64,000 bases of DNA from positions 2,687,501-2,751,500 of the forward strand of contig BQWY01000001.1 in the NCBI GenBank assembly GCA_036984305.1, in the 5' to 3' direction. Shown piece after piece: positions 12,055 through 24,258 of this stretch. How positions within the stretch are numbered: position 1 is the stretch's first letter; each line of letters begins with the position of its first letter. This stretch comes from Nitrospira sp. (GTDB taxonomy: Bacteria > Nitrospirota > Nitrospiria > Nitrospirales > Nitrospiraceae). A model generated the notes under the pieces. That model did not search any database. It saw only the letters and a program-made list of their open reading frames with translations, and was not told where the DNA came from. A program made the translations under genes and the position numbers.

Positions 12055-13106
12055 ATCGACTTCGTGGTCGAACTCGCCACCAGACACTCTCGAACTTCAC
12101 GGACGACACGTTCGGGCGAGATGCCAATCAGACATTCCATGGCCACGGGGTTACGGCACGTACGGCTGTAGCACGGTTGGCATGACAGTGAAAGGAACAG
12201 CGGCCGATGACGAAAGCCATAAGGACCCGTCCGAACGGCACTGGTGGGGCCAAAAATGGCGACCACGGGGGTCGACATCGCCGCTGCCACATGCATCGGC
12301 CCGGAGTCGTTGGTGACCAAACAAGCCGCCTCCTGCAACAGCGCCGGGAGTACCGACAAACTGGTCCGGCCGGCAAGGCTGACCGCTCCCGAGGCTTCAG
12401 CCACCTGTTCGGCCTCCGCCCGGTCACCGGGGGAACCTATAAGAATGACCGGAATCCTCTCCTCCACAAGCGCGCGAGCCACGGCGCTAAACGACGCCGA
12501 CGGCCAACGTTTGGTCGGCCAACGCGCGGAGACCTGCATCGCCACCCATTGGCGATTCTCGGGCACACCGGCCTCGGCAAGAAGGGTATGCACGATCCGA
12601 CGATCCTCCGCAAGAGGCGCCAGACAAAAGACAGGAAGCGAAACCGAGCAGCCCAGCGCGCGGGCTACCAATAGGTACCGATCGACCGCATGCATCTCCG
12701 GCGTTGGTACGGTAATCCGATGCGTATAGCAGAGTGGGCTCCCTTCACGCGCGTTCGCAAACCCCACTCTGAAGCCGCACCCAGTCAGCCACGCCGCCGC
12801 GCCACTACGAAACAGTCCCTGGAGATCGATCACCAGATCGAAGGCGTGCGCACGGAGTCGACCGATTTGGGTCATCCAGTCGGCAAGCGATGGCTCCACG
12901 GGCCAAATTCGATCGAGTCCATCGACCCGTCGAAGCATGTCGGCCCATTCGGCCTTCACCATCCATGAAAACTCCGCGTCGGAAAATCGGCGACGGAGCG
13001 CCTCGAACGTGGGCAGCGTATGCACGATGTCACCCAGGGAGCTGGGCTTGATCAGCAGCAGGCGTCGTATGGGCGGTAATGCGAGCTCCTCCACGTCCTC
13101 TTCCAT
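12051..13106 (-). CDS. Glycosyltransferase family 9, heptosyltransferase I-like
   Basis: The 351-residue protein shows the ADP-heptose:LPS heptosyltransferase pattern: RLLLIKPSSLGDIVHTLPTF (lysine and SxGD loop), FDLVIDLQGLFRSG (acceptor site), WPTKRWPSASFSAVARAL and CLVTNDSGPMHVAAAMSTPV (ADP-heptose binding). The SSLGDIVHTLP and DLQG forms are closest to the WaaC side of the family, which transfers the first L-glycero-D-manno-heptose to Kdo2-lipid A. It follows the WaaF-GmhB fusion gene with a one-base TAATG overlap and lies downstream of waaA, which fits inner-core assembly on the cytoplasmic face. Confidence 0.88.
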   Translation of the reverse strand: MEEDVEELALPPIRRLLLIKPSSLGDIVHTLPTFEALRRRFSDAEFSWMVKAEWADMLRRVDGLDRIWPVEPSLADWMTQIGRLRAHAFDLVIDLQGLFRSGAAAWLTGCGFRVGFANAREGSPLCYTHRITVPTPEMHAVDRYLLVARALGCSVSLPVFCLAPLAEDRRIVHTLLAEAGVPENRQWVAMQVSARWPTKRWPSASFSAVARALVEERIPVILIGSPGDRAEAEQVAEASGAVSLAGRTSLSVLPALLQEAACLVTNDSGPMHVAAAMSTPVVAIFGPTSAVRTGPYGFRHRPLFLSLSCQPCYSRTCRNPVAMECLIGISPERVVREVRECLVASSTTKSI

Positions 13107-14827
13107 TACCGAATCGTGGACGCCTCCGGCTGTACAAAAGCCTCCCGCCGGTGGACCACGTCCTGAATGATCCAGTCGACCGCGTCGGCAAATTGCGCCG
13201 CGATATAATCTGGGGCCACGCTTGAAATTTCGGGCGTGCCAGGCGGCTCCCCGGGCACGAAACCGTGCCGAACGAGAACCGTCCGCCCCCCGATCCGTCG
13301 TCCAAGCTCGATGTCCCGCTGGTGATCCCCAACCACATACTCCCAGCGTGGTGCGTTGCCCGCCTCGCGCCGGCTCTGTTCCACCATGCCGATCTGCGGC
13401 TTTCGACAGCCGCAGTTGTCGTCAGGGTGATGGGGACAGGTGTAGAGCCCATCCAACTCGATACCCTGTACCGACAAGTCGTCGCGCAATCTAGCATGGA
13501 TCGCCGCGAGTTGGTCCGGCGTGATGAGCCCCCGCGCGATTCCCGATTGATTGGTGACCACGACGAGTCTTGCCCCGGCTGCCTTCAAACGTCTCAACCC
13601 GTCGAAGACCCCAGCAAACCATTCCACACGTTGAGGATCGTCGAGGTACTCCCTGTCGCGAATGAGCGTCCCATCCCGATCAAGGTACACGGTTACGCCA
13701 TGCAAACTTGGGTGCTGGGTACCGGATGCTGACTGTCGGGTGTGGAAAGCGGAAGATGGGCCGGCCCCATCAGGTTGAGACTGGGTCGACAGAAGGCGTT
13801 CGGCGGCATCGACGACGTGATCGACCGTCACCCGTGTCATGCAGCGGTGATCGATCGGGCATTCGCGAAGCAGACAAGGGGCGCAGTCCACCGGTTGCCG
13901 TATCAACGCATGTCGATCGCCAAATGGCGCAGTCGAGCGCCAGTCGGTAGGGCCGAAGACTGCAACCACGGGCACGCCGAATGCCGCCGCGACATGCATC
14001 GGGCCGGTGTCGTTCGTGAGGTAGACGCTGCAACGGGCGGTGACGGCCATCAGTTCTCGGATCGTCGTGCGGCCCGACCAGACCAAGACCGACTCGTCGA
14101 GCAAACGTGCAATCGACTCGCCCAATTTTTCTTCACCGGTCGCACCCACAATGACCACTCGCGCCGATTGCCCGCGATGGTCACGGTACCATCGCACCAG
14201 CCGCTCCACGGTGCCGGCAAATCGCTCGGGAATCCATCGCTTGGCGGCACCATAGGTGGATCCCGGGTTGAGCCCGATCAAAACCTCGTTCGGACGGACT
14301 CCGGCCTGCTCCAGCCGCCGATTAACGACCGCACAATCTTCCTCGCGCAAGTACAAGCGCGGCGGTTCCACCGCCCCCTCGTAACCGATCGTCCGAAGAA
14401 GACCCACGTAATAATGCGCTTGCTGCGCCGGTGTTGTGGGCGTGGGTACGGCATGGGTCAGTAGCCAACCTCGCCCATCGGTCGCGTATCCCAACCGCCG
14501 GGGAATACCGGCGAGGCATGAGAGCAGGGCCGCTTCGAACGCATTCTGAAAAAGGACAGCCGCGTCGAATCGCTCACGGCGCAAGGCACGTGCGAGATCC
14601 CACTTGCCCTTTAACCCACGATGACGGTTTCGATGGTCATAGACAATACAATCCGTGATGGAGGGGTGTCCTTCAAGCAAGGCAGCCACCGAAGGGCGCG
14701 CCAGCACGGTAAGGGAAGCGTGAGGAAAGCAGCGGCCGACCGCTCGCAGCGCCGGCTCGCACATCACCGCATCCCCGATCCAATTCGGGACTCGGACCAG
14801 CAAGCGGGCGACGGATGCATTACGCAC
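13106..14827 (-). CDS. Fusion of heptosyltransferase II-like GT9 and GmhB phosphatase
   Basis: A single 573-residue frame joins two heptose-pathway enzymes. Residues 5-350 are a family 9 heptosyltransferase (LVRVPNWIGDAVMCEPALRA, LIGLNPGSTYGAAKRWIPER, SVYLTNDTGPMHVAAAFGVP). Residues 380-555 are a HAD-superfamily D,D-heptose 1,7-bisphosphate 7-phosphatase: YLDRDGTLIRD with the nucleophile-plus-two aspartates, VVVTNQSGIARG, the zinc-type CPHHPDDNCGCRKP loop and VGDHQRDIELG. One protein would thus contribute both to making the ADP-heptose donor and to using it. The start codon is GTG with no clear ribosome site and overlaps lpxK by 8 nt, suggesting translational coupling. No gmhA or hldE is in the window. 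Confidence 0.92.
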   Translation of the reverse strand: MRNASVARLLVRVPNWIGDAVMCEPALRAVGRCFPHASLTVLARPSVAALLEGHPSITDCIVYDHRNRHRGLKGKWDLARALRRERFDAAVLFQNAFEAALLSCLAGIPRRLGYATDGRGWLLTHAVPTPTTPAQQAHYYVGLLRTIGYEGAVEPPRLYLREEDCAVVNRRLEQAGVRPNEVLIGLNPGSTYGAAKRWIPERFAGTVERLVRWYRDHRGQSARVVIVGATGEEKLGESIARLLDESVLVWSGRTTIRELMAVTARCSVYLTNDTGPMHVAAAFGVPVVAVFGPTDWRSTAPFGDRHALIRQPVDCAPCLLRECPIDHRCMTRVTVDHVVDAAERLLSTQSQPDGAGPSSAFHTRQSASGTQHPSLHGVTVYLDRDGTLIRDREYLDDPQRVEWFAGVFDGLRRLKAAGARLVVVTNQSGIARGLITPDQLAAIHARLRDDLSVQGIELDGLYTCPHHPDDNCGCRKPQIGMVEQSRREAGNAPRWEYVVGDHQRDIELGRRIGGRTVLVRHGFVPGEPPGTPEISSVAPDYIAAQFADAVDWIIQDVVHRREAFVQPEASTIR

Positions 14828-15920
14828 GATGCAGTGCGGCCTCCTGTAGCACTGGCGGGCTCAATAAATGTTCCAGGCGGTCCTGCCCCGCCCAAATTTT
14901 GGGATCCAGGCGCACCGCCCACCAGGCATCCGACGGGTCGAGCAACTCCGCGAGCTTGCAGGCATCCTTTTCCGTCGTGACGATGAGCTCAGCGCGACAG
15001 GCATGGGCGCGGCGCTGCACCGCGGACACATCAAGGGCACTGTAGGCATGATGGTCCCGAAAGACGACGTGATCAAGCACCTGGAGCCCCATCCGAGCCA
15101 GCGTCTGGGCAAAGGAGCGGGGATTGCCAATCGCGCTGACCGCCACGACCCGACGGCCTTGCAAACTCGTGGCAGCCAGCGCCTGGCCTTTCATAATATG
15201 CACCAAGGCCTTAGGGACAAACTCCAGGCGAACGGTCTCGAGTGGATGTCCCACCGCCATTTCCAACTCGGATTCCACCGACGTTGTGTCGATCTTGGCT
15301 TCGGCTCGAGTCAAGACGAGAGCAGAGGCTCGGCCGGCAGCCGACAGCGGCTCACGCAACCGACCGAATGGAAGTAGCGCGGAGAAGCCGGTCCTGTCGG
15401 ACGCATCGATCAACAGAAGATTGACGTCACGCTCCAGCTGCAGATGCTGGAAGGCATCGTCCAGCACGATATCGTCGACCGGATACCGTTCCAGGACCCA
15501 TTGCCCGACGGAGTAACGATCGGTCCCCACCGCGACAACGGCACGAGGACATCGGCGGGCGATGAGAAACGGCTCATCTCCGGCTTCCGCAGGGCTTGCC
15601 AGCATGGTATGCCCATCAGACACCAGCACATGACGTGCTCGACTACGACGCCGGTATCCTCGGCTGAGAACCGCCACACGCCGACCCTGCGTCAGAAGAT
15701 GCTGGACAATCCAGATGACAGTCGGCGTCTTCCCGGTCCCACCGACGGTCAAATTGCCAACACTGATGACGCGACAGGGTAGGCGTCTGGTTTGGAGGTA
15801 CCCGCGACGGTACGCCCAGGCCCTGGCGCGGACGACGGCCGCATACGGCCACGAAAGAACCCGCTGCCAACTCGGAGCGGCCCCAAGCCCCTCCCCGTGC
15901 GCCGAATTTGCACCGCTCAT
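14820..15920 (-). CDS. lpxK: Tetraacyldisaccharide 4'-kinase LpxK
   Basis: LpxK phosphorylates the 4'-position of the lipid A disaccharide at the inner membrane. The 366-residue protein carries the family's P-loop late in its N-terminal part, VISVGNLTVGGTGKTPTVIW, then VAVLSRGYRRRS, YPVDDIVLDDAFQHLQLERD and LVLTRAEAK. The start was set at the ATG at 15920, overlapping the waaA stop as ATGA; the longest frame extends 61 codons further into waaA with no family resemblance. Length agrees with the usual 330-370. Adjacency to waaA and msbA supports its role in Kdo-lipid A assembly. Confidence 0.94.
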   Translation of the reverse strand: MSGANSAHGEGLGAAPSWQRVLSWPYAAVVRARAWAYRRGYLQTRRLPCRVISVGNLTVGGTGKTPTVIWIVQHLLTQGRRVAVLSRGYRRRSRARHVLVSDGHTMLASPAEAGDEPFLIARRCPRAVVAVGTDRYSVGQWVLERYPVDDIVLDDAFQHLQLERDVNLLLIDASDRTGFSALLPFGRLREPLSAAGRASALVLTRAEAKIDTTSVESELEMAVGHPLETVRLEFVPKALVHIMKGQALAATSLQGRRVVAVSAIGNPRSFAQTLARMGLQVLDHVVFRDHHAYSALDVSAVQRRAHACRAELIVTTEKDACKLAELLDPSDAWWAVRLDPKIWAGQDRLEHLLSPPVLQEAALHRA

Positions 15921-17275
15921 GCCGGCCCGATCCGCATCGACTGTCCATGAACGACTGCCTGTGGGGAAGCGCGCTGCCCTGAGCCCGACTCTAAAAAGCT
16001 TTCGACCACGGCCTGGCATTGTTGGAGCGCACCTCGATTCTCTCGGACGGTTTGCTCGGCAATGCGACCCGCCTGGTCCCGGCTGATGGGATCGGTGAAC
16101 CACCGCGAGATAGTATGGACGAGTTCTTGCCGACCCGCTACTCGGACGCCCCCTCCGGCTCCTTCGAGGAGATTGGCAATGTCTTGGCAGTGATCTGTGT
16201 GGGGACCGAATAGCACCGGCTTCCCCCAGGCGGCAGGCTCTAAGAGATTGTGCCCCCCCACCGGAACCAACGTGCCGCCGACGAACGTGACGGTGGCAAA
16301 CTGATACACGGCCCCGAGTTCACCTCGACTGTCCAGCAAAAGGATCCATGAATCTTCGTCACCGTCCAGGGTGTTGAGTTGACTGCGCCGTACCAAACCC
16401 ATGTTATGCGATCGGATCAGGTGGACCAATTCCCCCGCCCGTTCGATATGCCGAGGGGCGAGGACCAAATGGAAATCAGGAAACTGCTCTTTCACAATCA
16501 TACACGCACGGAGGAGCACCTCTTCTTCTCCCGGATGCGTGCTTCCAGCCACCAGTACGTGACCCCCAGGCGTGCGCTCGAACCAGCGGCGAATGGCGTC
16601 CAACTGGGCGGGCGCCACGGTTGGGAGCGGTTGATCGAACTTGATATTCCCAACTCGCCGAACGCGTTCAGGCTGTGCACCAAGTGCAACAATTCGCGCC
16701 GCATCGCGATCCGACTGCATCAGACACATGGAGACCTTCTCCAACAGCCGAGCATACACGTGCCGGACGCCGGGCCACTGCTGTCGCGCAAATGACCGAC
16801 TGGAAATTCGTCCATTCACCAAGACTGTCGGTACCCGAGCCTGGTCCATCGCGGTTAACAGATTCGGCCAAAGCTCGGTCTCGACGAAGACATAGACCGA
16901 AGGACGAAGTGTGCGGATGAAACGGCGAACGACCCACGGAAAGTCCAGTGGCGCATAGCAATGTGTCGCAGTACCCTCCAACCGTTGTACGACCGCTTCG
17001 CGTCCTGTTTCCGTTACCGTGGACACGACGATCGTGCGGGTAGGATCCCGGGCGTGCAACGATTTCACCAGTGGAACCACCGCAACGACCTCGCCGAGCG
17101 AGACAGCGTGGATCCATACCACCTGGCTTGACGGTGTACGCCCGGCCTCTAGGACCGGAGAGCGGAGTCCCCATCGATAGGGAAGGCCAGGACGGCATCG
17201 GGCCTTGGCGAGCATGACCGCCACGATCACAGGCGCGCCGAGCACCAGAAGAATATTGTACAGCCAAAATGCCAT
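15917..17275 (-). CDS. waaA: Kdo transferase WaaA (KdtA)
   Basis: WaaA attaches 3-deoxy-D-manno-octulosonate from CMP-Kdo to lipid IVA. The 452-residue protein has an N-terminal membrane segment (LYNILLVLGAPVIVAVML), IHAVSLGEVVAVVPLVKSL, VFVETELWPNLLTAMD, VAGSTHPGEEEVLLRA, FVGGTLVPVGGHNLLEPAAW and GKPVLFGPHTDHCQDIANLL, all diagnostic for the GT30 family. Whether it adds one, two or more Kdo residues cannot be read from sequence. It ends in an ATGA overlap with lpxK, and about 45 bases separate it from the damaged DUF374 gene upstream. Confidence 0.95.
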   Translation of the reverse strand: MAFWLYNILLVLGAPVIVAVMLAKARCRPGLPYRWGLRSPVLEAGRTPSSQVVWIHAVSLGEVVAVVPLVKSLHARDPTRTIVVSTVTETGREAVVQRLEGTATHCYAPLDFPWVVRRFIRTLRPSVYVFVETELWPNLLTAMDQARVPTVLVNGRISSRSFARQQWPGVRHVYARLLEKVSMCLMQSDRDAARIVALGAQPERVRRVGNIKFDQPLPTVAPAQLDAIRRWFERTPGGHVLVAGSTHPGEEEVLLRACMIVKEQFPDFHLVLAPRHIERAGELVHLIRSHNMGLVRRSQLNTLDGDEDSWILLLDSRGELGAVYQFATVTFVGGTLVPVGGHNLLEPAAWGKPVLFGPHTDHCQDIANLLEGAGGGVRVAGRQELVHTISRWFTDPISRDQAGRIAEQTVRENRGALQQCQAVVESFLESGSGQRASPQAVVHGQSMRIGPA

Positions 17276-17320
17276 GACCGTCGTGGTACAGGACAGATGC
17301 GCGCAGCCAGAAGAGCGCCG

Positions 17321-17518
17321 CTACGTCAATACCGTCGCATCGGCCTCCGCGGTGATCCGATTCAATTCGTCCTGCAGGTCGCGGCGTCTCGCTTCGAGTT
17401 CCTCGGAATCGGCATCGGACCGCACGACGATTGGGCGCCCCCAAATAAAAAGGCCACGGCTGAAGGGAAAGGGAATCAGAAAGCGATCCCAGCTTGCGCA
17501 CAGTTTTTTTTTGAGCAA
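17321..17518 (-). pseudogene. C-terminal fragment of the DUF374 gene in the shifted frame
   Basis: The minus-one frame after the A9 tract reads LCASWDRFLIPFPFSRGLFI and then WGRPIVVRSDADSEELEARR, the conserved end of DUF374 proteins (a conserved WDRF-IPFPF segment and a helical tail). It has no ribosome site of its own at a plausible place. It is best read as the missing end of the gene at 17476-17985, separated by a one-base deletion, a sequencing error in the homopolymer, or transcriptional or ribosomal slippage on the A9 tract. The coordinates cover the open frame, of which the first few codons overlap the upstream part. Confidence 0.7.
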
Positions 17519-17985
17519 CCAAATGTCACCGGCACGATCGGCAGCCCCGTGACCTTGGCCAACTCCACGACACCCGCCTGCGCGACCTGTGCCGGTCCCT
17601 TCGGTCCGTCCGGTGTGACACAGAGATCCGCACCGGATCGACCGACTCGGATCAATTCTCGCAGCGCACGCATGCCGCCACGCGTCGTGGACCCGCGTAC
17701 GGTCCGAAAACCGAAATGGGCGATGATACGGGCGATGATCTCCCCGTCCCGATGCTGGCTGATCAACACATGGATCTGCCGCCCTCGATACGCCGCCGGC
17801 ATCATAAGCTGCCGGCTGTGCCAGAAGGCAAAGATCATCGCCTGCCCACGCGCGTAGTGCTCATCCATGACCTCCGCCCCTCGCCGTTGAACTCGAATCG
17901 ATCGGGCCAGGAAGCGGATGACGCCGGCTCCGATCGGCGGAACCACATGCAATTTCAGCCAATTTACGAGCGACACGACGTCCAC
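17476..17985 (-). CDS. DUF374 acyltransferase-like protein, N-terminal part before a frameshift
   Basis: This 169-residue frame matches the lysophospholipid acyltransferase-like DUF374 family: IFAFWHSRQLMMPAAYRGR (the HX4-type acyltransferase site), VLISQHRDGEIIARIIAHFG, TTRGGMRALRELIRVGRSG and VTPDGPKGPAQVAQAGVVEL. After VTFGCSKK the frame leaves the family pattern at a run of nine adenines (minus strand, 17505-17513) and soon stops. The expected continuation is in the minus-one frame at 17321-17518. A single extra A would restore a protein of about 221 residues. DUF374 proteins occur next to msbA and waaA in many lipid A clusters, as here, and are thought to acylate or transport lipid A precursors. 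The gene starts 10 bases after msbA. Confidence 0.75.
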   Translation of the reverse strand: MDVVSLVNWLKLHVVPPIGAGVIRFLARSIRVQRRGAEVMDEHYARGQAMIFAFWHSRQLMMPAAYRGRQIHVLISQHRDGEIIARIIAHFGFRTVRGSTTRGGMRALRELIRVGRSGADLCVTPDGPKGPAQVAQAGVVELAKVTGLPIVPVTFGCSKKNCAQAGIAF

Positions 17986-17995
17986 TCCCCCTGTA

Positions 17996-19738
17996 TCACG
18001 GTGCCTCGAGCGGCGTTTCGTGGAATTGCATACTGTGCAAACGACGATAGGTACCGTTACGCTGTAGCAACTGTTCGTGGGTACCCGTCTCGACCACTCG
18101 CCCGTGGCTCAATACGACGATTCGGTCGGCGTTCTGAATGGTCGACAGCCGATGAGCAATCACGAGCGTCGTCCGATCCTTCATCAGATTCGAGAGGGCC
18201 AACTGGACCACGCGCTCCGACTCCGTATCCAGGGCCGACGTCGCCTCGTCGAGAATCAGGATGGGCGGATCTCGAAGAATCGCTCTGGCGATCGCCAATC
18301 GTTGGCGCTCGCCGCCGGACAGTTTGACACCATGCTCTCCCACGCGCGTCTGATACCCCTCGGGAAGGCGTTGGATAAACTCGTGGGCGTGGGCGGCGCG
18401 CGCCGCCTGCTCGATGGCCTCGTTGGACGCGCCGTCGCGTCCATACGCGATGTTGTGCACCACGGTGTCGTCAAAGAGGACGACCTCCTGAGACACGATA
18501 CCGATCTGCGCGCGCAGCGACTGCAACCGATATAACCGAACATCCGTCCCGTCGATGGTCACCTGCCCTTCAGTCGGATCGTAGAAACGCGGTACCAGAC
18601 TGACGAGCGTGGTTTTGCCGCTACCGCTGCTGCCGACAATCGCGATGACCTCCCCGACCCGCACATCCAGACTCACGTCCTCCAACGCCGGAACGGTATG
18701 CCCCGGGTATCGGAGCGTGACGTCTCGAAATTCGATGGATTGATGGGCCCGGGAAAGCTCCATCGTCCCACGATCGAGTTGGTGTTCATGTTCGATATCG
18801 AGGACGAGAAACACCCGCTCGGCAGCGGCTAGGGCTTGTTGGATCGTGTTGTTCGCTCCCGACAAACGGCGCAAAGGGGTATAGGCCATAAACATGGCCG
18901 TCAGGAATGAAAAAAAAGCGCCGGGCGTCATCGAACCGTGAATCACCAGGTAGCCCCCATACCAGATGATACCGGCGACACCCAGAACTCCGATGACTTC
19001 CATGTGGGAACTGCCGAGGGAGGAGACTTGGATCGATTTCATGGCGGTCTCCAGCACGGCTCGATTGTTCTGATGGAACCGGTCGGATTCCGTCCCCTCC
19101 CGGTTGAACCCCTTGACGACCCGAACGCCGCCAAGCGTCTCCTGCAGCGTGGTGGCCATGTCTCCGATACGTTCCTGGCCGCTGGTCGCTAACCGCCTCA
19201 GCCGCTTGCCCATGCGCGTCATCGTGTAGACAGACAGAGGGATCACCAGAATCGACAGGAGCGCCAACCGCCAGTTTTGGTAGAAGATCACTCCCATCAT
19301 CACCAAGAAGGTCAGCCCCTGTTGGCAGAGGTCTTTGAGGACGCCGGATACCGCGGTTGTCATGAGATTCACGTCGTTGATCACACGCGCGACGAGCCGC
19401 CCGGAGTTGTTTGTGTCGTGGAATGAAACCGGTAGGCGGATCATTTGCTCGAAAAGCCGTTGGCGTATGTCCGCCACCACGCGATAGCCGACATAGTTCA
19501 TGAGGTAGTTTTGTCCGTAATTAAACGCCCCTTTGAGGACCGAGACGGCCAGAATCGCCAACGGCAAGATCACCAGGAGTGTCTCATCCTTGCTGATAAA
19601 AATGCCGTCCAGAACCGGACGCACCAACCAGGCATAGGCGCCAGAGAGCCCCGCAACCAGGGCTGAGCACACGATTGCTGCCAGCAGGCGCACGCGGTAG
19701 GGGTAAAGATACGTGAGCAGTCGTTGATAGAGATTCAT
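17996..19738 (-). CDS. msbA: Lipid A-core flippase MsbA (ABC transporter)
   Basis: MsbA flips core-lipid A across the inner membrane using ATP. The 580-residue protein is a half-transporter: six membrane segments in residues 1-310 (for example LLAAIVCSALVAGLSGAYAW and LALLSILVIPLSVYTMTRMG), then the nucleotide-binding domain with Walker A VGSSGSGKTTLV, signature KLSGGERQRLAIARAIL, Walker B ILILDEATSALD and switch histidine VIAHRLSTI. The start was moved to the ATG at 19738, which overlaps lpxB's stop as ATGA. Placement between lpxB and waaA supports lipid A over a drug or peptide substrate. Confidence 0.94.
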   Translation of the reverse strand: MNLYQRLLTYLYPYRVRLLAAIVCSALVAGLSGAYAWLVRPVLDGIFISKDETLLVILPLAILAVSVLKGAFNYGQNYLMNYVGYRVVADIRQRLFEQMIRLPVSFHDTNNSGRLVARVINDVNLMTTAVSGVLKDLCQQGLTFLVMMGVIFYQNWRLALLSILVIPLSVYTMTRMGKRLRRLATSGQERIGDMATTLQETLGGVRVVKGFNREGTESDRFHQNNRAVLETAMKSIQVSSLGSSHMEVIGVLGVAGIIWYGGYLVIHGSMTPGAFFSFLTAMFMAYTPLRRLSGANNTIQQALAAAERVFLVLDIEHEHQLDRGTMELSRAHQSIEFRDVTLRYPGHTVPALEDVSLDVRVGEVIAIVGSSGSGKTTLVSLVPRFYDPTEGQVTIDGTDVRLYRLQSLRAQIGIVSQEVVLFDDTVVHNIAYGRDGASNEAIEQAARAAHAHEFIQRLPEGYQTRVGEHGVKLSGGERQRLAIARAILRDPPILILDEATSALDTESERVVQLALSNLMKDRTTLVIAHRLSTIQNADRIVVLSHGRVVETGTHEQLLQRNGTYRRLHSMQFHETPLEAP

Positions 19739-20865
19739 GCCGCACACACTTTCAGCACCGCTTCAGCCGCACGTTCGGACGCGCCCGGCTCGCCGAGCGA
19801 CTGCCGTACGTCGGCCAGGTCCTGCTTCATCTTCTCGTAGGCACCACGATCGCGCAAGAGTCGCAGGGCTTCCTGGCTCAGCCGTTCACCGGTCGCGTCG
19901 CCTTGGATCAATTCGGGAATCACCTCGCGCCCGGCAAGGATGTTGACGAGGCCGATCCAGCGGACAAGGATCATCCGCTTCGCCAGCTGATACGTCAGCC
20001 AAGTCGTCCGGTATGTCAGGACCATGGGTGTCCCCACGATCGCGGCCTGCAGGGTTGCGGTTCCGGATGCGACCAATAGCACATCGGAGGCGGCCATGAC
20101 CTCACTAGGCTGTCCGGCCACCACCGTCACCGGGATGGCCGCACTTGACAAGTATCGATCGAGCAGCGAATGAGAAATCGAGGAGGCCTGCGCCAGGACG
20201 AATCGACACTCCGGGATTGCGGACCGGATTCGGCGTGCTGCCGCCAGCATGGGCGGCAGCAGGAACTCGATCTCCCGCACACGGCTTCCCGGTAGGAGCC
20301 CAACGACACGACCACCCCCGGTGAGGCCAAACTGACGACGAAGAGCGTCCCGGTCGTATGTCGCAGCAACCTCATCCAATAATGGATGTCCCACAAAACG
20401 ACAGGCGACACCGGCCTGCTCATAGAGGGCCGGTTCGAAGGGGAAAATAACCAGGACCAGGTCGATGACGCGCTTCATCAAACGAATGCGCCGAGGCCGT
20501 GACGCCCAAATCTGTGGCGCGATATAGTACACGACGCGATGTCCGGCTGCCTTGGCCGCTTTGGCCAATTGCAGGTTCATTCCCGCGTTGTCGATCAGCA
20601 CTACGGCGTCGAATCGATGTGACCGAAGATACCGTGCGATGAGGCGAAGGTTATAGTAGCCGTCGCGAAGGATCGATAGGCCGGCCAGTCCCATGTGGTC
20701 CAGTCGTCGCAGCCCTTCCAGCAGGCGCACCCCGGCAGCCGACATGCGAGGCCCGCCGACTCCGGACAATTCACAGGTCGGATCGGCCGCCCGAAGGGCC
20801 GTGGCAAGATTGGCACCATGTTGATCGCCGGACGCCTCCCCGGTCACGATCATGACTTTCGGCAC
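19735..20865 (-). CDS. lpxB: Lipid-A-disaccharide synthase LpxB
   Basis: LpxB condenses UDP-2,3-diacylglucosamine with lipid X to give the lipid A disaccharide. The 376-residue protein has VMIVTGEASGDQHGANLATA, LSGVGGPRMSAAGVRLLEGL, VVLIDNAGMNLQLAKAAKAA, VVYYIAPQIWASRPRRIRLM, LLPGSRVREIEFLLPPMLAA and LLVASGTATLQAAIVGTPMV, all fixed positions of GT19. Length is normal. It overlaps msbA by 4 nt and follows the Gfo/Idh/MocA gene after 39 bases. Confidence 0.96.
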   Translation of the reverse strand: MPKVMIVTGEASGDQHGANLATALRAADPTCELSGVGGPRMSAAGVRLLEGLRRLDHMGLAGLSILRDGYYNLRLIARYLRSHRFDAVVLIDNAGMNLQLAKAAKAAGHRVVYYIAPQIWASRPRRIRLMKRVIDLVLVIFPFEPALYEQAGVACRFVGHPLLDEVAATYDRDALRRQFGLTGGGRVVGLLPGSRVREIEFLLPPMLAAARRIRSAIPECRFVLAQASSISHSLLDRYLSSAAIPVTVVAGQPSEVMAASDVLLVASGTATLQAAIVGTPMVLTYRTTWLTYQLAKRMILVRWIGLVNILAGREVIPELIQGDATGERLSQEALRLLRDRGAYEKMKQDLADVRQSLGEPGASERAAEAVLKVCAA

Positions 20866-22075: not shown

Positions 22076-22927
22076 CTACGTCCCTTTCATTCCCACCACG
22101 GCGATCCGTGATCGATTCGCATTCGCCAACATATCGTCGCGATCCAGCACGACGCTCCGTCCCGCCTCCGCGACGAGCACCGCGGCCTTGACCGCCTTCA
22201 TGGTATCGATCGTGCGAGGCCCGATCGCCGGTAGGTCAAACCGAAGATCTTGCTGTGGCTTACATCGCTTGACGACCACGGCGCCACCCTCGGCGAGTTC
22301 GCCACCGCGACGAATCGCCCCATCGGTCCCTTCGACGGCCTCGACAGCCACGACCACGCGATCCTTCACGACGATACATTGTCCGATATCGAGTCGCCCT
22401 ATTTCCCTCGCAATTTCCCAGGCATACTGGATGTCGCCCCACTCTTTCTCAGTAGGGGCTCGCTTCGACAACACACCTTCCTCGACGAGGACTCCCGCCA
22501 ACCCGAACGTCGATTCGCGAATGACGATCCCTTCCCGTTCCAATTCGGCGGCGAGCTCGCGAAGAATATCGTCGTCTCGCCAGATCGCTAATCGGGCGGC
22601 CATGGCCAGAGTCCGCAGATCGGGCCGCACGGTTTTAAAGACGTGCGTTTTCTGGATTCCGCCCAGCATCACGGCCTGAGTGATACCGTCCGCCTTGAAC
22701 GCGCCGACCAACTTATTTAATTGTCCGATTTTCACCCAGTGGATGCGATCGACGTGCTCGGCCAAGGCAGGATCCGTCTCACCGACATGGGCCACGGCGC
22801 AGACACGATAGCCCATACGCCGCGCATTGTCCGCAAAGATAATGGGGAACCTGCCGTTTCCCGCTATCAGACCCAGGGTTCCTTCGGCCTGAGGCTCGGG
22901 CGGACGGGCAACAACAGGGTCACTCAT
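22076..22927 (-). CDS. lpxI: UDP-2,3-diacylglucosamine pyrophosphatase LpxI
   Basis: LpxI hydrolyses UDP-2,3-diacylglucosamine to lipid X and UMP, replacing LpxH in many non-gammaproteobacteria. The 283-residue protein has LGLIAGNGRFPIIFADNARR at its start, KADGITQAVMLGGIQKTHVF, IVIRESTFGLAGVLVEEGVL, GDIQYAWEIAREIGRLDIGQ, VVAVEAVEGTDGAIRRGGEL and FDLPAIGPRTIDTMKAVKAA, the two-domain LpxI (formerly DUF1009) pattern. The start at 22927 overlaps the end of lpxA by 8 nt; upstream in-frame codons lie inside lpxA and are not conserved. Confidence 0.93.
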   Translation of the reverse strand: MSDPVVARPPEPQAEGTLGLIAGNGRFPIIFADNARRMGYRVCAVAHVGETDPALAEHVDRIHWVKIGQLNKLVGAFKADGITQAVMLGGIQKTHVFKTVRPDLRTLAMAARLAIWRDDDILRELAAELEREGIVIRESTFGLAGVLVEEGVLSKRAPTEKEWGDIQYAWEIAREIGRLDIGQCIVVKDRVVVAVEAVEGTDGAIRRGGELAEGGAVVVKRCKPQQDLRFDLPAIGPRTIDTMKAVKAAVLVAEAGRSVVLDRDDMLANANRSRIAVVGMKGT

Positions 22928-23726
22928 CGGCGGCTTCCTCGGCGGACGCCGCCCGACACACGCCACGCTTCGTTCCCTCAAGGAAGACCAGGAGATCCTT
23001 CACGTCCGGATTACCCTCGAAGCGCTCACGAGCGAGCTTGCTGGCCTCCGCAAGGCGATGCCCTTCCCGAAACAGAAGGTCGAAGGCCTTCTTGAGACCG
23101 GCAATTCGCTCCGAGGAGAATTGATGGCGCTTCAACCCCACGCTGTTCAGCCCATAGAGCCGCGCGCGGTAGCCTCCTGCAGCCCGTGTGAAGGGCGGAA
23201 CATCTTGCCCCAACGCACAGCATCCGCCGACCATGGCATACGCACCGATTCGGACGAACTGGTGCACGCCGGTCAACCCGCCGATGATGGCATGGTCGCC
23301 TACGGTGATGTGCCCCGCGAAGTTTGCCGAATTGGCGACGATCACATGATTGCCCACATGGCAATCATGTGCCAGATGCACATAGGCCATGAGAAAATTG
23401 TGATGGCCGATGCTCGTCACGCCTCCGCCCGCGACCGTCGCACGATTCACGGTGACATACTCCCTCAGCACGTTGTCATGGCCGATGATCACCTTGGTCG
23501 GTTCCCCTTTGTAGCCCAGATGCTGCGGCGGTCCGCCGATCGATGCAAAGGGGTGAAGTTCGCACCGTTCACCGATTTCGGTCCAGCCCTCCACACAGAC
23601 ATGCGAGAACAGGCGAGTCCCTTTCCCGATCTTCACATGTTCCCCGATCACACAGTAGGGACCAACGCTGACATCCGATGCCACCTGGGCCTTCGGATGT
23701 ACAACCGCTGTTGGATGAATGTTCAC
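22920..23726 (-). CDS. lpxA: UDP-N-acetylglucosamine acyltransferase LpxA
   Basis: LpxA transfers a hydroxyacyl chain from ACP to the 3-position of UDP-GlcNAc, the first lipid A step. The 268-residue protein is a left-handed beta helix (IHPTAVVHPKAQVASDVSVG, YCVIGEHVKIGKGTRLFSHV) with the catalytic region YVHLAHDCHVGNHVIVANSA and a helical C-terminal domain ending at RFEGNPDVKDLLVFLEGTKR. The start is GTG at 23726, preceded by GAGGAGAGAGC. Acyl-chain length or amide preference cannot be read with confidence. It is encoded 73 bases after fabZ. Confidence 0.95.
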   Translation of the reverse strand: MNIHPTAVVHPKAQVASDVSVGPYCVIGEHVKIGKGTRLFSHVCVEGWTEIGERCELHPFASIGGPPQHLGYKGEPTKVIIGHDNVLREYVTVNRATVAGGGVTSIGHHNFLMAYVHLAHDCHVGNHVIVANSANFAGHITVGDHAIIGGLTGVHQFVRIGAYAMVGGCCALGQDVPPFTRAAGGYRARLYGLNSVGLKRHQFSSERIAGLKKAFDLLFREGHRLAEASKLARERFEGNPDVKDLLVFLEGTKRGVCRAASAEEAADE

Positions 23727-23799: not shown

Positions 23800-24258
23800 T
23801 CATGTAACGGAGATCGACGACTGCTCCTCCGTGACCATCGCCGTGATTTCGGCCTCACACACCAATGTTTCCCCCACATACGCCTGCCCGTGCATTCGCC
23901 AAAACGGCGGACGGCGCTTCAACACCGTCACCTCGAGCCGAAGCTGATCGCCCGGCACCACCGGTTTTCTGAATTTTGCAGCATCGACACCCGTCAGATA
24001 CACCGCTGGCTTCCCGCCGGGAGGGGCGGACTTGAACGCCAGGACTCCGCCGACTTGTGCCATCGATTCCACGATCAGCACACCAGGCATGATCGGCCTC
24101 CCGGGGAAATGTCCCGGAAAAAACGGCTCGTTTGCCGTCACATTCTTGATTCCGACGATTCGTACATTCGGTTCCCATTCCCGAATCCGATCCACGAGCA
24201 GGAACGGATATCGGTGCGGTATTACGGAAAGAATAGTCGTGATGTCCATTTCAGCCAT
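23800..24258 (-). CDS. fabZ: 3-hydroxyacyl-ACP dehydratase FabZ
   Basis: FabZ dehydrates 3-hydroxyacyl-ACP in fatty acid synthesis and competes with LpxA for the same substrate. The 152-residue hotdog-fold protein has the catalytic histidine in IPHRYPFLLVDRI, the GHFPGRPIMPGVLIVESMAQ helix with the catalytic glutamate, and AKFRKPVVPGDQLRLEV. Length is typical. The ATG at 24258 has GGAG about 9 bases upstream; a second ATG lies 9 bases further in. A palindromic repeat ends only about 19 bases upstream of the start codon. Confidence 0.95.
   Translation of the reverse strand: MAEMDITTILSVIPHRYPFLLVDRIREWEPNVRIVGIKNVTANEPFFPGHFPGRPIMPGVLIVESMAQVGGVLAFKSAPPGGKPAVYLTGVDAAKFRKPVVPGDQLRLEVTVLKRRPPFWRMHGQAYVGETLVCEAEITAMVTEEQSSISVT

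Follow-up and report, generated by a model that had tools for sequence, protein, structure and literature searches.

A frame break at nine adenines, conserved across families of Nitrospirota, probably makes an LpxJ-type acyltransferase dependent on slippage

A 64,000-nucleotide stretch of Nitrospira sp. contig BQWY01000001.1 (assembly GCA_036984305.1, positions 2,687,501 to 2,751,500 of the forward strand; hereafter the window) carries a gene of the DUF374 acyltransferase family whose reading frame breaks exactly at a run of nine adenines (A9). Is this gene damaged, or does the cell make use of the break? An earlier reading made from the letters of the window alone (the sequence-only reading) had proposed a sequencing error, phase variation or productive slippage. 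Our comparison with related loci strongly supports the last of these, as 167 of the 192 distinct loci compared within the phylum have the same −1 break, with selection acting on the shifted frame. By this comparison the cell very probably slips on the A9, in transcription or translation, and thereby obtains a working enzyme. It is probable that this represents conserved programmed slippage, mainly transcriptional, yielding a full-length LpxJ-type enzyme.

The frame switch of a DUF374 gene at A9 was confirmed on the sequence; the gene occupies the minus strand from 17985 to 17321, and the T9 at 17504-17512 of the plus strand is the A9 of the coding strand. The gene comprises the following elements, drawn from the sequence and the listing of open reading frames (ORFs):

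17321 to 17985, minus strand: lpxJ-like gene (DUF374), both frames joined (sequence, ORF listing, Pfam match, residue spacing).
17476 to 17985, minus strand: 0-frame (unshifted) ORF of 169 amino acids, with the counterparts of LpxJ W60, H61, D86 and D132 (ORF listing, Pfam, spacing).
17504 to 17512, minus strand: putative slippage tract A9, with 0-frame codons TCA AAA AAA AAC (sequence and comparison of loci).
17321 to 17518, minus strand: −1 (shifted) ORF, with the C-terminal part of the enzyme encoded 3' of the tract (ORF listing, selection test).
17486 to 17491, minus strand: TGG GAT, the W166-D167 pair of the predicted product, in the shifted frame only (residue spacing; coordinates counted on the sequence).

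The 0-frame ORF (17985-17476) ends in ...PVTFGCSKKNCAQAGIAF-stop, and the −1 frame reads LLKKKLCASWDRFLIPFPFSRG... and continues to the stop that ends at 17321. The predicted slipped product has 221 amino acids from a GTG at 17985, with an alternative GTG start at 17976. Pfam DUF374 matches the 0-frame part at 105.9 bits against a curated cut-off of 26.8, and at an expectation value (E) of 0.001 no NCBIfam model matched either the N-terminal half of the window gene or L080, a natural in-frame relative from genome G096. An Rfam scan of 16000-19800 found no family at its threshold.

Relatives were collected in two surveys. A PF04028 search of 99 genomes, the window's own included, gave 94 positive genomes with one match each; among 90 of these 94 loci that were read, 87 have their halves in different frames, with A9 in 79 and A10 in 8 (L052 included), and 3 are in one frame without the tract. 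The second survey, with the L080 protein as query, matched 213 of 395 genomes of the phylum, and details were taken for 20 + 32 chosen genomes. Removal of 19 other-phylum loci, eight A9 loci from the genome search and four repeats left 234 pooled phylum loci, from which 35 duplicates (34 locus repeats and one identical pair from two genomes) and seven loci with one half unfound were subtracted to give the 192 distinct loci, a count that takes in only part of the matches from families f18, f21, f22 and f32. Family labels were assigned to loci by hand from the two surveys. Five of the seven dropped loci (L160, L162, L163, L164 and L187) have a match that crosses the junction without a stop and resemble distant relatives with the gene in frame; of the other two, L175 is a weak second match, and L161 is described below. 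Two genomes outside this count, G017 and G244, have A9 at the site, with the C-terminal half as a separate match.

The −1 change occurs at A9 in 151 of the 167 loci and at A10 in 16, one further locus (L052) is broken in another way, and 24 of the 192 are in frame, with longest A runs of 2-6. The tract is A9 or A10 in 168 of 168 frame-broken loci, with no A8 and no A11. It stands in codon phase 2 in 156 loci and phase 0 in 11; in five f9 loci it starts one base later (TCT), and its length is still nine or ten. The base 3' of the tract in the 151 A9 loci is C in 118, G in 29 and T in 4, and at the A10 sites examined, L052 apart, this base is replaced and none is added, so that the frame stays off. 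In-frame relatives read SHKH, SQKT, AKKY or SSRK at the position of the tract, not KKK. Broken loci occur in families f1, f2 and f3 (the window's order), f5, f6, f8 and f9 (class) and f15, f16, f19 and f26 (phylum); the examined loci of f4, f18, f21, f22 and f32, and single members of f1, f3 and f6, are in frame. The break that the sequence-only reading had taken for the lesion of one genome is real and, given how few A9 runs the window's genome has and how often the break recurs, well outside what chance would produce, but it is the usual state in the window's order and several other families. A scan of genome contigs yielded 19 other-phylum loci (titled Planctomycetota, Verrucomicrobiota and one uncultured bacterium), whose halves lie in one frame in 19 of 19. 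No relative was found in the phage records and viral contigs searched.

Selection was assessed by the ratio of nonsynonymous to synonymous substitution rates (dN/dS) across 654 pairs of loci with A9 in phase 2 whose upstream parts are 78-95% identical. In this ungapped comparison, whose pairs are not independent, dN/dS is 0.059 in the N-terminal half, and in the C-terminal half 0.132 in the product frame and 1.30 in the 0 frame; by this measure, purifying selection acts on the C-terminal half in the product frame only. The earlier suggestion that loss of the gene could alter lipid A thus misplaced the emphasis, the shifted half being under purifying selection. These data bear directly on the reading that the gene is a pseudogene, or its break an assembly error, in the window's genome. 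Such is indeed its appearance from one genome alone, and a copy in G036 is damaged; however, the break is common to 167 of 192 loci and both halves are under purifying selection. Moreover, the window's genome is 99.97% complete in 11 contigs, and the single-contig genomes G001, G012, G032 and G087 carry the same break, which refutes a sequencing error. The comparison of relatives, which the sequence-only reading had recommended, found the same break in most of them and no scattered lesions; relaxed selection together with such lesions is absent across the 192 loci, and the pseudogene was rejected. We regard this explanation as having a negligible chance of being correct.

The tract itself also appears to be maintained. 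Outside it, AAA encodes 170 of 506 lysines, and TCA accounts for 80 of 1156 upstream serine codons, yet TCA starts 153 of 156 phase-2 tracts. A9 matched 8 times in the 4.35 Mb of the window's genome, with 2-10 overlapping matches per genome in 13 genomes of its family; G005 (3.1 Mb) has two, one of them at this site. Eight other genomes of the same order have 0 to 61, the highest counts being 61 in G062, where the gene is in frame, and 44 in G067. As only the shifted frame is under purifying selection, the tract runs against codon preference (AAA, TCA) and A9 is rare in the family, frame and length are both maintained. Selection against A/T runs is evident from length nine in a large share of bacterial genomes (PMC1088944, in its available portion). 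Three further A9 runs on contig C2 of G000 (L116, L117 and L118) have short G+C-rich sequence nearby and by eye are terminator-like. Runs of eight A or T occur in the window at 1625, 18910, 36429 and 50625, that at 18910 inside the msbA-like gene.

Genes of cell-envelope pathways that contain a homopolymer are usual sites of phase variation, in which slippage during replication would put the gene into frame (on) in some cells and out of frame (off) in others. At a locus that switches, mixed states would be expected. Instead, none of the 24 in-frame loci has an A run longer than six, 167 of the 168 broken loci share one offset, neither A8 nor A11 is seen among the latter, and the base swapped at A10 sites other than L052 keeps them out of frame. 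Phase variation, which the sequence-only reading had entertained, is thus poorly supported, and we consider it highly improbable. It is also conceivable that the gene is split, with the C-terminal half started independently and pairing with the N-terminal half as a second chain. The frames are open on either side of the junction, and some start codon lies no more than 30 codons before the W in 26 of 167 loci. However, in 110 of 167 the product frame has no ATG, GTG or TTG between the nearest upstream stop and the W, a Shine-Dalgarno-like motif precedes such a start in 0 of 26, and in-frame relatives encode a single chain, leaving a split gene very little probability.

How, then, would the full-length product be made? 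In the mechanism that we favor, RNA polymerase would stutter on the A9, and a fraction of transcripts would come out one A longer (or altered by an equivalent number modulo 3). These transcripts would encode the 221-residue enzyme, whereas the remaining ones would give a 169-residue product that ends before the C-terminal strands, last helix and essential W-D pair. The main alternative is programmed −1 ribosomal frameshifting on A_AAA_AAA, A_AAA_AAC or A_AAA_AAG, which would give the same protein from an unaltered mRNA. Most phase-2 sites do hold A_AAA_AAC or A_AAA_AAG, judged by their next-base counts, and A-rich cassettes shift frame in E. coli (PMC3711429, in its available portion). But a ribosomal heptamer needs at most seven A's and nine are always kept, and the tract ends (the serine codon TCA and the third lysine codon) could change without altering the protein, yet stay A. 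A Shine-Dalgarno-like motif lies upstream in 1 of 168 loci (4 of 168 and 14 of 168 at control positions), and downstream folding has a mean z of −0.27 over 83 loci, nothing special beside other gene windows (−0.82, −0.59, 0.04 and 0.18); this scarcity of stimulators lowers the odds of ribosomal frameshifting, and no more than lowers them, since some sites need none. L052 would furthermore require the ribosome to shift in another direction. Slippage by RNA polymerase is the most likely mechanism, as the tract never falls below nine A's, occurs in two codon phases and has neither a Shine-Dalgarno-like stimulator nor unusual folding downstream. We thus clearly prefer transcriptional slippage, and ribosomal frameshifting is an unlikely, though serious, alternative.

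Several observations weigh against conserved programmed slippage in transcription, in addition to the nature of the dN/dS comparison given above. The A_AAA_AAA heptamer stands in phase within the tract in both codon phases, and ribosomes could act on it or contribute. The 0-frame tail is anywhere from 2 to 88 codons long, leaving the end of the short product unconserved, and with so variable a tail nothing suggests selection on that product. L052 (in G098), one of the 192, has A10 with a net change unlike that of the other broken loci; it may reflect an error in the draft assembly or a site that needs a different slippage product. L161 (in G036) retains the tract and the C-terminal half, and its N-terminal half is unrecognisable upstream (about 1490-1560), making it the sole clearly damaged copy. 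Finally, an in-frame gene in G096, G317, G363 and f4 indicates that slippage is dispensable there.

The history of the break was examined on a quick tree of 98 rows with the tract excluded. The rows are a sample: from f1, three chosen rows and one in four of the rest; from f3, L080 and one in two of the rest; every row of the other families; and three outgroup rows. Frame state changes five times on this tree, and the starred branches force at least three changes; the outgroup does not form a single clade and there are some long branches, which leaves the root uncertain. This pattern fits one gain and four losses (G096, G317, G363 and f4). In the simplest case, the break would have been gained once, early in one clade of the phylum, kept by selection and lost about four times. 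The in-frame relatives L120 (G363) and L080 (G096), both without the tract, represent natural losses of the site.

What enzyme would slippage restore? In Rickettsia typhi LpxJ, alanine at W60, H61, D86, D132, W172 or D173 abolished activity (PMC6148475, in its available portion). Their counterparts in the slipped window product are W55-H56, D80, D126 and W166-D167, spaced 22/2/46/40 against 23/2/46/40 in R. typhi LpxJ, the residues being mapped by order and spacing rather than by an alignment with the Rickettsia protein. Given this matching spacing, W166-D167, just past the tract, is therefore missing from the unslipped product, and the 169-residue protein should be inactive. In a structure model of L080 from a 17-row alignment (predicted local distance difference test, pLDDT, 90.6), the junction corresponds to residues 154-157, at the end of strand 148-155, and is followed by three short strands and the long last helix. 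Foldseek matched the model to PlsC (5kym, E 1.3e-7), PatA (5f2z, E 1e-6) and LpxM (5knk, E 8e-5), with template modelling (TM) scores of 0.47-0.55; a profile search of solved structures gave weak matches only, to PlsC (E 0.016) and a tetrapyrrole methylase (E 0.053). From its family and its place in a lipid A cluster, the gene product would be an LpxJ-type late acyltransferase of lipid A, transferring a secondary acyl chain. LpxL/LpxM-type genes are above cut-off in 3 of 21 genomes, and the LpxJ-like enzyme may therefore often be the main late acyltransferase.

Other acyltransferase-like frames were also seen. The third matches that the looser protein survey gave in some genomes, checked in 19 of them, are weak (E 8e-6 to 8e-4, about 30% identity) and look like other acyltransferases, except in G244 and G263, where they are fragments at contig ends; no intact second copy of the gene was seen among the third matches checked in these 19 genomes. 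L268 (G000:C1:1659682-1660251), a weak LpxL/LpxM-family match (37.9 bits) in a 418-residue frame, may be another acyltransferase. A 227-residue frame about 30% identical to the enzyme recurs in genus g24 (e.g., G061:C19:6979-7380) and is probably another lipid acyltransferase.

The DUF374 assignment and the position between msbA and waaA given by the sequence-only reading agree with the domain matches and the ORF listing. The cluster runs fabZ-like, lpxA-like, lpxI, oxidoreductase, lpxB, msbA-like, DUF374 gene, Kdo transferase, lpxK and heptosyltransferases, with these neighbours identified from the ORF listing and domain matches:

17996 to 19747, minus strand: MsbA-like ATP-binding cassette (ABC) transporter, upstream neighbour.
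15917 to 17275, minus strand: Kdo transferase (waaA/kdtA), downstream neighbour.
14820 to 16103, minus strand: lpxK.
19735 to 20865, minus strand: lpxB.
22076 to 22981, minus strand: lpxI.
22920 to 23726, minus strand: lpxA-like acyltransferase (hexapeptide repeats and Acetyltransf_11).
23800 to 24258, minus strand: fabZ-like (FabA-like domain).

Close by, a 573-residue ORF at 13106-14827 (minus strand) joins a Glyco_transf_9 heptosyltransferase to a HAD-type phosphatase domain and looks like a fusion of two heptose-pathway enzymes.

Why is such a site kept? Replication slippage should readily restore the frame. In-frame genes are few, and all of them have lost the tract. Either surplus full-length enzyme is harmful and the site caps its dosage, or slippage follows the state of the cell. 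A neutral trap, in which slippage merely makes the break tolerable, is less likely because the site was lost about four times along branches, with mostly slipping tips, that together carry roughly 21 amino-acid changes per column (a rough sum). One speculative and rather unlikely form of the second option is that the A9 acts as a sensor, its slippage rate varying with nucleotide pools, temperature or polymerase speed, so that the active fraction of LpxJ, and with it lipid A acylation, would track cell state. If so, a membrane regulator would be built into the error rate of RNA polymerase and kept across many families of the phylum. Collectively, the break is conserved, the tract length is kept and the shifted frame is under selection; from these we jointly infer that slippage occurs in the cell, mainly in transcription, that the 169-residue form has no activity, and that enzyme dosage is capped or set by the site. 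Over much of its history, a large clade of the phylum would then have relied on slippage for a cell-envelope enzyme. Annotation pipelines likely flag the gene as frameshifted or as a pseudogene, so that a lipid A enzyme would be missed. Some 170 known sites and about four losses would also make the gene a natural experiment on whether recoding sites are kept for regulation or merely tolerated.

The mechanism has precedents in other genes. For this gene, with sites in eleven families of a single phylum, no report of it was found in the literature searched, nor was any coupling of DUF374/LpxJ with slippage or recoding, in a search that covered the GeneTack clusters of PMC3711429, though not gene by gene, and few subscription journals. 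Neither "acyltransferase" nor "Nitrospira" occurs in the available part of PMC5009743. LpxJ of Rickettsia and Epsilonproteobacteria belongs to the same Pfam family (DUF374), and the positions essential in R. typhi are kept here with matching spacing (PMC6148475, in its available portion), but the word frameshift is absent from PMC6148475. Closest by pathway is the "Tetraacyldisaccharide kinase/acyltransferase" cluster, a region of lipid A genes in which a frame transition is predicted; as described in the available portion of PMC3711429, however, it is classed with both frameshift and coupling, and that survey had one Nitrospirae genome. By the same source, the chlD (magnesium chelatase) −1 cluster likewise joins parts of a metabolic enzyme by a frame change at a poly-A run, and a chlD A9 cassette gave a 40% shift in E. 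coli, but this is another gene and its site type is termed programmed frameshifting. Thermus thermophilus dnaX shares the nine A's and RNA polymerase slippage (available portions of PMC1088944 and PMC3711429); there, however, the unslipped RNA gives the full-length protein, whereas here slippage would be needed for full length. In Citrobacter rodentium tssM1, transcriptional slippage at A11 reaches about 20% by green fluorescent protein (GFP) fusion, with reverse transcription PCR (RT-PCR) products of 10-15 A's, and, as here, the available portion of PMC4256274 reports neither a Shine-Dalgarno-like nor a structure signal near the site. However, tssM1 encodes a secretion protein of which both forms are needed, whereas the gene studied here encodes a putative lipid A enzyme at A9 or A10, its unslipped form is predicted to lack essential residues, and its site extends across eleven families of a phylum.
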